A stretch of DNA of 64,000 nucleotides from Apophysomyces variabilis (lineage: Eukaryota > Mucoromycota > Mucoromycetes > Mucorales > Mucoraceae): positions 83,945-147,944 of the forward strand of contig MZZL01000390.1 of assembly GCA_002749535.1 (NCBI GenBank), in the 5' to 3' direction. Shown one piece after another: positions 59,349-64,000 of the stretch (position 1 is the stretch's first letter; every line of letters starts with the position of its first letter). Below the pieces are notes generated by a model. The model did no database searches. It was not told the origin of the DNA and worked only from the letters and a program-made list of their open reading frames with translations. The translations under genes and the position numbers were made by a program.

Positions 59349-61964
59349 TTATAATTCTAAGAGAACCACTCCTCGCATTTCAGCCACTTGTTTCAACATC
59401 TTGTTCTCTTTGTTCGGGTTCTCCCTTGCCACCCATAGCTCCTTGATGATTTGTTGTTCGTCTAAATCGAATAACTCGTACACTTGTAGCAGTTCAGGTA
59501 CGGGTTGCACTTCCAAAGCAGCCAGCACGTTGACTAAATATTCGATATCTGTTCGCAGCTGGCGACCGCCTTGCTGACTCATGTTCCGTATTTCGAACAC
59601 TTCGTCCAAAAACGTTTTCATAGTACCGCGTGCGACAGACGTCGTCCATAGCTGTACTACCTGCTCAGTTGGTACTGGCTCTTCCAGCTCGATCGTATCA
59701 TCACCAATGAAAGGAATGGTATCCGTATGGTACGCTAAGCAGTCATCGTCGGAATATACTTCGAATTGCTGCGGCAACATTAAAAGTTGTTCACCCACGC
59801 GCGTAATATATTCATTCGGTGATAAGCTAAACTGTGGCATTTCGATGGATGATGCATCGCGACGGGTGGGGTTATCGGGTGCTTCAGCTGCCCATATGGG
59901 ATTAGTAGCAACGCCAGCAAGATGACGAGATATTGGCGTGTGGATTGCCTCATGAAGGAAACGCTGACATTCTTCAGTAAATCGTTCGATGCTCTGGTAT
60001 CCGTCGTATAACATTTGATTCACTATATTTGGTTTTTCTTCCTCTATAACGGATGAAGCCTGACTGATCAACTTGTGTAGTTCATGGGTATTAAGAGAGG
60101 AAGTTCTCAACAGCGCTAGCGATGCTTGAGGTAGTTTCTCACCATGACTGTGCTCTTGTATTTCTCTTGCAGTGCTTGCACTCCGTTTCCGTTCATGCGT
60201 CCGCACAGGCTCAGCTCCGACCGATGTTTCTCGTCTTCGAGCACCTGGGGTCAATGGGGGTTCATCATCCTGTAACACACGTCGAACTCCTTCAAATACG
60301 CGACAAACATTCTCCTCTAACCCGTGCAAATGAATCTCCATAATCCGACATATTCCGAGCAAACGTAATCCTACTTGGAAGTCTGACCAATCGTTGTTTT
60401 GCAACTCGGCATCAAGATCCAAGTCGTCTGTAGCGTCTGAAGAAATAGAGATTCTAGGTGGGTTCTCCTCGGCATGGCTTGTGTCGACGATAGTTTCGCA
60501 ATTTTTTTCTATGTGTGCTAATATGGCTCGTAGTTGTACCTTCATATCATCCACGTAGTTATTCAGCATTTTGAGCCATTCAACACCTCCGTAGCCATGC
60601 GTTAACGCAAGGCATCTATTCAGAGATTCCTTGGCAAGGCTAAATACTTTGCCAATTACCTCGCTAGATATGAGTTGTGCCAATTCCATCGAACCTTTCT
60701 GATGAGATTTCGCTTCGTTAAACATCGATATCATCTGCGCAGTCAAGTATTGTCCTTCAAGCGAAGCATATTGCGACTGGATGGGTAAAAACGGCTCATA
60801 CAAGACATAAGACCATGCGTTTGTATCAGCATGGCGCAGTACTAAAGGAACTAACGTAAGCTGGTTTCCATGAGAATGTCGGCGTGCATGCGACTTTATA
60901 TGGACATTAAAAGAAGATGATTCTGCTGAAGCTGTAATCACCGGGGGCTTTGCAAACAGACGTTCCAAAGAGAAACCGAAGGCTTCAGTCACTGAGAATG
61001 CAGCCACCATAGTTGGTAACGCATGTGGACCATTGGTCTGCTTAACTGTCTGCAACATGTCATCTAGAGAGGGATCCAAAGATTGCAAGATATTCTGAAC
61101 GAACGCTTGTACTATAGGTTTTGGATCCGGAAATATAGACGCGCACCAAACGTATTCTTCGGAAAGCAAGACAAAGATGGATTTGTAAAACGCATCCAGC
61201 ATATTTATATCGAGCTTGTCACCTTCACCCACATTCTTCCATTGTAAAACTGCGTCCGGGTTTCGTACTTCGAAATACAGGTCCACAAAATCTTCAGCTC
61301 GCCCAATGCGCCCAAACACTTTGTAGAACTTATGGCACTCTACAGCGTCATGCGCCTTTAACGCTTCCATCACTTTCGGTTTTAGTGCTTGCTGTAAATC
61401 ATCCTGCAACTTTTTCAGCAAGCGGCGACGAGGTTCGTATTCAGGAGTGTGCTGGAAGACGTCCAAACTCTGCTGAGCGCTTTGCAAACGTGCGGCTGCT
61501 CCTTCGTAGTCTTCGTTCGTTAAACGACTTGTTTCAGCTTCCAAATTACGCCAGTTCTCAGCTTCACGCAAGGCAGATCTGCACTGCTCCATTCGCGTCT
61601 TTACTAAGTGAAGCTGTCGCAGCTTTTCAAGCGCTGTTGCCGTATCCTTTTCTACAACGCCTAGGTTCGTCTTCACGCTTTCTACTCCTTCTTTCGTAGC
61701 TTTGGCACTGTCACTGATCAATTTAAGATCGTACAATATGCGAGGCATGCTCTTGATGACATTATCAGTTACTTGGCCCACTTTACGCGATGTCTGCTCA
61801 CTGGCTAATTGCAGTTTTGTGACCAAAATCGTTGCATCCTGCTCTGTTGTAGTTGCCGTGGAATCAGGTACTGATGAATTAGACTTAAGTAGAGCATTGA
61901 TCCACGTTTTAGGATCGAAGTCAGGATCGGAAAAGGTGGTGATATCGACTGTAGAAGGAGCCAT
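59349..61964 (-). CDS. COG7: Conserved oligomeric Golgi complex subunit 7
   Basis: Subunit of lobe B of the COG tethering complex, which captures retrograde vesicles at the Golgi and keeps glycosylation enzymes in place. Single exon of 871 residues, typical for COG7 and long for this intron-rich genome. The N-terminus DFDPKTWINALLK matches the DFDVKEWINA start of animal COG7. A helical region follows, with KLQLASEQTSRKV, MPRILYDLKLI and LRQLHLVKTRMEQCRSALREAENW aligning in order with the animal protein, then TPEYEPRR and a long helical-bundle C-terminus ending ...MRGVVLLEL. The internal start MAPSTVDITTF (61964) is preferred to the ATG at 62003 because the family begins close to the DFD motif. 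A disordered acidic/basic insert lies near residues 570-620. Confidence 0.93.
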   Translation of the reverse strand: MAPSTVDITTFSDPDFDPKTWINALLKSNSSVPDSTATTTEQDATILVTKLQLASEQTSRKVGQVTDNVIKSMPRILYDLKLISDSAKATKEGVESVKTNLGVVEKDTATALEKLRQLHLVKTRMEQCRSALREAENWRNLEAETSRLTNEDYEGAAARLQSAQQSLDVFQHTPEYEPRRRLLKKLQDDLQQALKPKVMEALKAHDAVECHKFYKVFGRIGRAEDFVDLYFEVRNPDAVLQWKNVGEGDKLDINMLDAFYKSIFVLLSEEYVWCASIFPDPKPIVQAFVQNILQSLDPSLDDMLQTVKQTNGPHALPTMVAAFSVTEAFGFSLERLFAKPPVITASAESSSFNVHIKSHARRHSHGNQLTLVPLVLRHADTNAWSYVLYEPFLPIQSQYASLEGQYLTAQMISMFNEAKSHQKGSMELAQLISSEVIGKVFSLAKESLNRCLALTHGYGGVEWLKMLNNYVDDMKVQLRAILAHIEKNCETIVDTSHAEENPPRISISSDATDDLDLDAELQNNDWSDFQVGLRLLGICRIMEIHLHGLEENVCRVFEGVRRVLQDDEPPLTPGARRRETSVGAEPVRTHERKRSASTAREIQEHSHGEKLPQASLALLRTSSLNTHELHKLISQASSVIEEEKPNIVNQMLYDGYQSIERFTEECQRFLHEAIHTPISRHLAGVATNPIWAAEAPDNPTRRDASSIEMPQFSLSPNEYITRVGEQLLMLPQQFEVYSDDDCLAYHTDTIPFIGDDTIELEEPVPTEQVVQLWTTSVARGTMKTFLDEVFEIRNMSQQGGRQLRTDIEYLVNVLAALEVQPVPELLQVYELFDLDEQQIIKELWVARENPNKENKMLKQVAEMRGVVLLEL

Positions 61965-62719
61965 TGCCCGAAACAGAAAAGGTCGACATCTGTCGGTGAA
62001 CAAAATTCATTGCGATTGTTTTCAATCGCAGATTGACAGTGCATTGTGAGAGCTTCACAGTATATCAATATGCAAGCAAGCGAATCTGACGATCCAGTTA
62101 AAAGAGGAGCAAAGCAAAACCTATACGTGAAATATAACCGGCGTTTGCCACGGGAAAGTAGTTGATTTAGTTCTGAGTAATGTATGGGCATTAATAAAAG
62201 CTGCAAGAAAAAGTGCATTTGTCCCCGCAGACTGCTAAAGAAAGGAATTACTAAATGCACGCGAAAAGGTATTCGTCATAACCATAGACTAGAAGAAGCC
62301 CATTCTGTTTCTTGAAAGTCACAATCTTATAAAAGAATGGTGAGATCCTTAAAGGCTTGTGTCCTCTTTTATTCGAACAACTCCCTAAAAATTGGTAGTA
62401 TCAGCATTACTGCCATTTTCATCACGCTGAAATAAGGCTTGCTTATCTATGCTGAACCGCGCTAACCGCTGTCTATCAACACGCAGTGAGCCTGAAATGA
62501 TAAAAGCGGACTAATTAATCCTAAATAGCACGTAGCTAAGATTATCAATAAAATACGTCGAGACATATGGATTCAATAACAAATCCATAAGTAGCGCATA
62601 AACATATTATTGAAATTGTTTCTTGGCTGCTTGCTTTATTTTTCAGGACCAACACATGCTGCTTTCGTTTTTGGTTGTCATTGTACTTTATTTCCAAAAA
62701 TTAAAGTCGCATCTAGCAG
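61965..62719. other. Intergenic upstream of COG7
   Basis: Contains the COG7 promoter. Short frames only, no gene or RNA recognised. Confidence 0.35.
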
Positions 62720-62859
62720 ATTCACTTGGCGCATTTTGGAAACTGGGCTTGACGCTAACAAATTACATTAATTGTCGTGTTATAAGAGTTCGAATTGACC
62801 AGTTTTACATACCTGTCATAAAACTGACGACGCCATACCCATCTCCCCGCCAAGTGAAT
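62720..62859. repeat. 140-bp segment with 12-bp inverted ends, downstream of Fanzor ORF
   Basis: ATTCACTTGGCG at 62720-62731 is the exact reverse complement of CGCCAAGTGAAT at 62848-62859. The enclosed 116 bases have no long second stem that I can see. It lies 95 bases beyond the stop of the Fanzor ORF. It could be a tiny inverted-repeat element, a structured RNA stem, or part of the end of the Fanzor-carrying transposon. Confidence 0.5.
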
Positions 62860-62953
62860 GTAAGATGCATATATAAATCTCAGTTGATGAGTAATAGAAG
62901 AAAAAATAACAATAGTATTCAATGACACTTACTAAATACCGGGCGTAAAAGCC

Positions 62954-64000
62954 CTATCCATATGACTCATGGATCCTTTTCTGTCTTTTTGCTTGCTGCC
63001 TCTCAGATCGCCTTAAAGGAGCTCGGGACGATTCTGCTCTTTCCTCTTCTCCTCGGCTGATTCGTCTGCGAGACCTGGGTGGTTCAACCATAGTCTCGGT
63101 TTGGCTGGCTCTTGTTCGACGTCGTGCAGTTGGGATTATCACCGCCGCTTCTTGGCTAGGGCTTCGTCGAGGCTCGGCAATCCCAGGCACCTCCCGTGCC
63201 CCTGCTACCTCTCGGCCACTAGCTCGCTCTTCTAGAGGGGTTGTCACCGCCATCTCTGTTTCTGTTGAAGGGGTTATCACCGCCATTTCACGGGGAGGGG
63301 TTGCCACCGCCATCCCTTCGCTAGGGTGTCGTCGAGGTTCGGCAATCTCAGGCACCTCCGTCACCTCTCCACCACTAGCTCTCTGTTGAAGCCCTGCACG
63401 ACCAGTCATCACCATCGCCTCCTCTTCGCCAGCCGCTTCCAGACGCCTTGACGGATGGATGAACCAACGAGGACGCTGCTGAAACCGTAGCATGTATCGT
63501 GCAATGGTAGCCTGGTTGTCTGCTGCATTACCATCCCGGTGGAACGTACGATCACAGTTCGCACACTGAACTACGCGTAACACTTTCTCCTGACCGTTCT
63601 CCAATCGAGCTCTGTCTTGCACCGTTGCCGTAGGAGGTCGTCGCAAAAAGTCGATACGTCGGTCTTGACATTCCTTGGAACAGCGACAATACACCTTGGA
63701 TGTGAGATATTCATCGACTCGAGTGCATACGTCGACATGTTGCCTGTCCTTGTTTCGATTCTTCTGGTTGATCTCCCGGTACAAAGCATTGGCAATCTTG
63801 TGGTCCATAGGCGCCAAACCCCCTCGTCTTGACTTTCGACTCATCCCGTCTAAGCCAAAAGCGTAGACAAGACGAGGCTCATCGACATGTCTACGATTAT
63901 CATCCATTTCGTGATTCATGTCGAAAGTACGCCTAGCTTGATTCGTTATGAGGTAGCAAGCCTTGTCAAGACACGATCTCTGAGATATCGCATTGTCCCA
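62954..64000 (-). CDS. Fanzor (TnpB-like RNA-guided nuclease), C-terminal part, cut by window edge
   Basis: The frame is open from the window edge (64000) to the stop at 62954; the first internal ATG is at 63919, but in-frame sequence continues upstream, so the N-terminal part lies outside. Counting from that ATG, DEYLTSKVYC (69-78) is the TnpB/Fanzor block before the zinc ribbon, Cys78/80/84 and CANC (119-122) form the ribbon, and FHRDGNAADN (126-135) is the RuvC-III motif with catalytic Asp129. Glu70 could be the alternative RuvC-II glutamate of the rearranged active site known in Fanzors. Residues 165-321 are a Glu/Arg/Pro-rich tail with internal repeats ending in a basic RRSERQQAKRQKR, a likely nuclear signal. 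Family members use a guide RNA from the element's 3' side to cut DNA. Confidence 0.85.
   Translation of the reverse strand, partial: WDNAISQRSCLDKACYLITNQARRTFDMNHEMDDNRRHVDEPRLVYAFGLDGMSRKSRRGGLAPMDHKIANALYREINQKNRNKDRQHVDVCTRVDEYLTSKVYCRCSKECQDRRIDFLRRPPTATVQDRARLENGQEKVLRVVQCANCDRTFHRDGNAADNQATIARYMLRFQQRPRWFIHPSRRLEAAGEEEAMVMTGRAGLQQRASGGEVTEVPEIAEPRRHPSEGMAVATPPREMAVITPSTETEMAVTTPLEERASGREVAGAREVPGIAEPRRSPSQEAAVIIPTARRRTRASQTETMVEPPRSRRRISRGEEERAESSRAPLRRSERQQAKRQKRIHESYG

Follow-up and report, generated by a model that had tools for sequence, protein, structure and literature searches.

A decayed fungal transposon gene predicted to join an XPG/Rad2-family nuclease to a divergent Fanzor

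What did the gene encode whose 3' end lies at the edge of a 64,000-nucleotide stretch of Apophysomyces variabilis DNA, and what might its product have done for the transposon that carries it? This stretch (the window) is positions 83945-147944 of contig C75 in a 38.7-Mb genome, and copies of the gene lie on contigs C59, C64, C68, C75, C78 and C88. An initial annotation took the last reading frame of the window for a Fanzor-type RNA-guided nuclease in a fungal genome, active or only recently silenced. The gene runs on past the window, across a run of 5,494 N bases that starts exactly at the window's end. To judge from its sequence, it encoded one polypeptide, in which an XPG/Rad2-family (Exo1-like) nuclease was joined through a linker to a divergent Fanzor; because the XPG half lies beyond the window, this fusion was out of the initial annotation's sight. 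We propose, with a probability of roughly 70%, that the window holds the 3' end of a dead copy of a fungal transposon whose XPG-Fanzor protein would have cut empty sites under RNA guidance, after which Exo1-like resection would have favoured copying the element back.

One predicted polypeptide with two nucleases

The introns of the C64 copy have clear GT...AG ends (the last, of 59 bp, lies before the RuvC part), and its spliced exons form one frame that begins MGLKGF, ends in the basic tail seen in the window and contains six stops, with no frameshift needed. Read through, this frame gives ~1,570 amino acids (aa). The fusion is laid out as an XPG nuclease of ~345 residues, a linker of ~150 and a Fanzor of ~1,050, and in C64 a single 2,221-bp exon takes in the closing part of the XPG half (GNDY), crosses the linker and enters the Fanzor half. 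Annotated proteins carry the fusion in two genera: P0001 of Apophysomyces ossiformis (EC973_000314, 1036 aa), the nearest named protein found, and P0002 of Lichtheimia hyalospora (K492DRAFT_200548, 1416 aa), both of them gene predictions, cross the XPG/Fanzor junction. Six short relatives are XPG-only pieces, found by a search that admitted only short proteins.

On sequence features and a structure model, the N-terminal half is placed as an XPG/Rad2-family, Exo1-like nuclease, its 5' nuclease activity likewise being a prediction. Exo1/FEN1 comes top for its predicted fold in Foldseek and VIA, with human Exo1 the closest solved fold; the model has a pLDDT of 59, and we therefore give the XPG/FEN-type fold moderate weight. 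P0002 keeps all seven acidic positions of the XPG metal-binding set. Two of the six short relatives exceed the XPG_N Pfam cut-off of 22 bits (P0006 at 26.1 and P0005 at 22.7 bits), while the remaining four score lower or have no match, as do P0001, P0002 and the C64 piece; for XPG_I the best score is 22.7 bits (P0004, from Rhizomucor pusillus) against a cut-off of 24.9. Like exonuclease 1 and FEN1, the half begins with MG(I/L)KG at its N terminus, has XPG_N and XPG_I regions and the seven acids, and is predicted to take up their fold. Sequence identity to them is low, however, and here the domain belongs to a transposon-encoded polypeptide that also contains an RNA-guided nuclease.

The substitutions of the XPG half show that it evolved under constraint. 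Between C59 and three other copies, at a synonymous divergence (dS) of 0.40, the ratio of nonsynonymous to synonymous divergence (dN/dS) is 0.34-0.35; for the C-terminal tail it is 0.95-1.15 in six comparisons with C59 and 0.5-3.3 over all 21 pairs. Values among close copies (XPG 0.46-0.50, Fanzor N-part 0.38-0.61, RuvC-TNB 0.29-1.09) include decay after death, and those of the linker (0.39-5.9) reflect few changes and are uninformative.

The C-terminal half is, on present sequence evidence, a divergent Fanzor1-like protein, predicted to cleave under RNA guidance. This placement follows from its motif order, glutamate spacing, TDG motif and profile match. The published Fanzor motif is D-X(125,275)-[TS][TS]-x-x-[C4 zinc finger]-X(5,50)-RD (PMC3627910); here the RuvC-I Asp (D1126 in P0002, D1147 in C64) is followed after 197-198 residues by TS, a CxxC, a second zinc pair and an Asp, an order that fits save for the departures in Cys and HRD given below. 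Upstream of the window frame the RuvC-I Asp was found, in SLDFGE beyond the N run at the window locus and in GLDFGE of C64, and the TDG motif of the Fanzor wedge (WED) domain (PMC10711439) reads TDGVRLY in C64 and P0001 and TNGIRVY in P0002. The alternative RuvC-II Glu, also present in the window, stands six residues before the first zinc Cys in P0002 and C64, the arrangement reported for Fanzors. Most RuvC and zinc positions are conserved in relatives. The RD of the motif is present in P0002 and the window, with HGD for HRD in C64; the C4 zinc finger is complete in C64, lacks its last Cys in P0002 and has lost its first in the window copy, where Tyr stands in place of the Cys of all four sequences compared (C64, C78, C88 and P0002). 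The initial annotation read CANC-x4-HRDGNAADN, the intact RuvC-III Asp and the nuclear-signal-like basic cluster of the tail correctly, but its four or five intact zinc-binding Cys are not borne out.

Residues 92-162 of the window frame match Pfam PF07282 (Cas12f1-like_TNB) at E = 1.3e-4; their 22.5 bits fall short of the curated threshold of 26.3 bits, which some sibling loci exceed (C88:152289, for example, at 30.4 bits), and direct PDB searches with the window family found no Fanzor. When six other Fanzor frames of this genome are made into a profile, it retrieves chains of TnpB, Cas12 and Fanzor (SpuFz1 at 0.0048, PpFz1 at 0.05), and it matches the profile of the window family with 97% probability. 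With the upstream RuvC-I Asp, the alternative Glu position and the transposon setting, this match upholds the view of a Fanzor-type protein in a fungal genome.

The protein shares with Fanzor1 (SpuFz1, GtFz1, PpFz1 and the Fanzor1 elements of Bao and Jurka) the RuvC-I Asp, Glu spacing, RuvC-III Asp and TDG, as well as carriage at the 3' end of a transposon with terminal inverted repeats (TIRs). It differs in the fused N-terminal nuclease, in a long stretch between the two zinc pairs, in having DFG (P0002 and C64) for the RuvC-I DPG described as near-exclusive in Fanzors (PMC10711439), and in its size of 1,416 to ~1,570 aa against a reported 400-700 aa, with some to ~800 (PMC10432273, PMC10711439). 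PpFz1 of Parasitella (PMC11423790) is likewise a Mucorales Fanzor1 with an extra domain; its FRI is a ~100-aa insertion in RuvC that binds cyclophilin, whereas here a whole nuclease precedes the Fanzor.

Dead copies and the transposon that carried them

The initial annotation had noted that no stop interrupts the frame as far as the window's edge. The frame is indeed open for 348 codons, and the part within the window has no frameshift or stop relative to C64 (943 exon bases compared), its tail being 20 residues longer. It reaches the edge open because the window ends exactly where the N run starts, and the open frame therefore does not show an intact gene. Beyond the N run, the window locus has four frameshifting indels and two stops relative to C64, and its zinc site is damaged; this copy, suggested at first to be active or only recently silenced, is dead. 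C68 has seven stops and one frameshift, and C59 nine stops and 11 frameshifts; with the stops of C64, all four XPG-bearing copies examined are therefore dead.

Counting fragments separately, the window family is matched 124 times in the genome; the matches range from the window frame itself and a copy at 94% down to 34% identity. The XPG half occurs at nine places or more (13 matches). At the window locus, part of the gene occurs twice next to the N run (L009:2001-8101), the joint being marked by one N; this is either a nested copy or a scaffolding artefact. The C59 copy (G000:C59:532500-551800; L026, L036) looks chimeric, with a switch near the fusion junction: it has diverged widely from the other copies in the XPG half (dS 0.40) but little in the Fanzor N-part (dS 0.035-0.065).

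The C64 element is 8,912 bp long (~8.9 kb), has TIRs and contains the gene. Its copies have in common the 5' end TACAGTATCTCCCAAAAATAATTTCGC and the 3' end GCGACTTTAATTTTTGGAAATAAAGTAC, which form imperfect inverted repeats; the element end sequence is CAGTATCTCCC. TA adjoins the 5' end of 17 of the 20 copies for which that end is in the DNA examined, and the 3' end of 20 of 21. A single insertion has an empty counterpart, 73-80% identical, at another locus, and its junctions agree with a TA duplication to within 1-2 bp. The target site is probably TA. The element shares TIRs with Tc1/mariner-type elements, another mark of which is a TA target-site duplication. Among open reading frames of at least 45 aa in the 5' part of C64 and C75, a stretch on which no profile scan was made, no transposase was seen; the genome as a whole has 171 DDE_3 (mariner-type) matches. 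A 48-codon stop-to-stop frame (ALPMPTVKQSKAELAAAKAEISRLKQ...) at the 5' end of the C64 element (L035:6383-6526), similar in C64 and C75, looks coiled-coil-like by eye.

Deletion derivatives of ~4 kb, ~1.7 kb and 280 bp keep the last ~198 bp of the element. The 280-bp form is 78 bp of left end plus 198 bp of right end, and among the 40 matches listed for it 21 span the junction and 19 are right end alone. For the ~1.7-kb family, 16 copies were examined and 40 places scored, one of which is the C64 element itself. Among the ~1.7-kb copies, a segment of ~189 bp close to the 5' end (L041:461-649 and further short copies) occurs in both orientations, which would reflect two subfamilies or an inversion event.

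The right end is where an omega-RNA would be expected, and in the window copy its predicted RNA fold is strong (z = -3.46, with one of 200 shuffles as good). Two results speak against a guide RNA there: none of 31 predicted pairs covaries among 15 sequences, and the right end is not more conserved than neighbouring regions. Its retention in the derivative classes fits a guide scaffold and a transposase binding site equally.

What the fusion might do

We propose that the Fanzor half would be guided by an RNA that reads out of the right end of the element into flanking DNA, and would cut the empty target site, whether left by excision or carried on the other chromatid. The Exo1-like half would then trim or resect the 5' ends at the break, which would be repaired by copying the element from an intact chromatid. 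With an Exo1-like domain in the same polypeptide, resection of the 5' ends would be at hand, and this should favour copying the element back. Characterised Fanzors cut DNA to leave staggered or blunt ends, the biological role of this cutting is stated to be unknown, and cutting by TnpB is thought to enable element copy-back by homologous recombination (all PMC10432273). Of five exonucleases joined to Cas9 in Pichia, the best positive rates came from Mre11 and Exo1, and homologous recombination rose with the Mre11 fusion (PMC9450370). Those constructs likewise join an RNA-guided cutter to an end-resecting nuclease, but they are laboratory-made, whereas XPG-Fanzor would be their natural, transposon-borne counterpart.

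A repair-type nuclease fused to a Fanzor in two genera, with its XPG acids kept, hints at a purpose for the Fanzor cut: the fusion may help the element copy itself, and it makes the idea of "cut, then copy back" directly testable. That it amounted to a cut-and-resect homing machine, one transposon protein cutting an RNA-specified site and its fused Exo1-like nuclease steering repair to copying, is a tentative idea with the odds against it, which if true would give Fanzors a concrete role. Searches of open-access literature, with subscription papers and preprint servers outside their range, yielded no natural fusion of a Fanzor or TnpB with an XPG/FEN1 nuclease. Neither "XPG" nor "exonuclease" appears in the main text of Bao and Jurka, of Yoon or of Saito, and the Results of Bao and Jurka describe no fusion of XPG with a Fanzor-type protein.

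Might the XPG and Fanzor parts be two adjoining genes merged by gene prediction, with no fusion protein? The junction codon is TGA in C64 and C59, P0001 and P0002 have the standing of predictions, and P0004 is an XPG-only gene model of 273 aa. Yet the junction is open in C68, C75 and P0001, an unbroken exon joins the two parts, the alignment of P0002 extends across the linker, and the next Met after the junction comes only after 182 residues in C64 and 167 in P0001 (it lies nearer in P0002, and C75 has one within the linker), so that we consider separate genes very unlikely. Less probable still, to the point of being hard to credit, is that the window frame encodes an ordinary protein of the zinc-ribbon kind instead of a Fanzor: its Pfam score below cut-off and the Fanzor-free PDB searches would suit this, but in relatives the RuvC-I and RuvC-III Asp and the alternative Glu are spaced as in Fanzors and the TDG motif is present, and the profile match and transposon setting also speak for a Fanzor.

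Other readings accept the fusion and give the XPG half different work. It might act on the R-loop, nicking the displaced strand or a Fanzor-made flap, so that the two nucleases together make the double-strand break. XPG-family enzymes act on single/double-strand junctions and bubbles, and covalent linkage would put the XPG half at the R-loop. The RuvC triad positions are present in relatives, however, so the Fanzor half should need no help to cut both strands, as with characterised Fanzors (PMC10432273), and the nearest fold is Exo1 rather than XPG, a similarity that does not show substrate; we regard this reading as doubtful. Somewhat less likely again is that the XPG half acts in excision or repair by processing the transposon ends, with a different role for the Fanzor half. 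As no transposase was seen in an element with TIRs and TA ends, end processing could be the XPG half's contribution, but the mariner-type matches could supply transposase in trans, and nothing links XPG to the ends. We prefer guided cutting of the empty site followed by resection.

Coordinates and surroundings

Table 1. Features of the gene and transposon within the window
Feature	Position	Strand	Remark
C-terminal 348 codons of XPG-Fanzor gene	62954..64000	-	part of RuvC, zinc ribbon, basic tail
Stop codon of XPG-Fanzor gene	62954-62956	-	
Alternative catalytic Glu (VDEY)	63710..63712	-	residue 97 of frame, six residues before first zinc-Cys position
First zinc-Cys position	63689..63691	-	here Tyr (TAT)
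CANC, second zinc pair	63554..63565	-	coordinates frame-derived
RuvC-III Asp (HRDGN)	63533..63535	-	
Basic KRQKR cluster near C terminus	62975..62989	-	nuclear-signal-like by sequence; coordinates frame-derived
Transposon right end	62683..62878	-	kept in 280-bp derivatives; strong RNA fold; expected omega-RNA place
Right TIR	62686..62710	-	imperfect partner of 5' end CAGTATCTCCCAAAAATAATTTCGC
TA beside right end	62684..62685	.	putative TA target-site duplication
Flank just outside right end	62663..62683	-	guide position if omega-RNA is made, as suggested by known Fanzor loci

Other Fanzor families, whose zinc ribbon is of a more usual form (L001-L008), are also present in the genome, which has 73 PF07282 matches in all; none of the 13 XPG matches falls at these eight Fanzor places. 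Within the window, a neighbouring long frame (59349-62006, minus strand) is COG7, of the Golgi complex (Pfam E = 1.1e-94); ~0.7 kb upstream of this frame, and on its strand, is the right end of the transposon.
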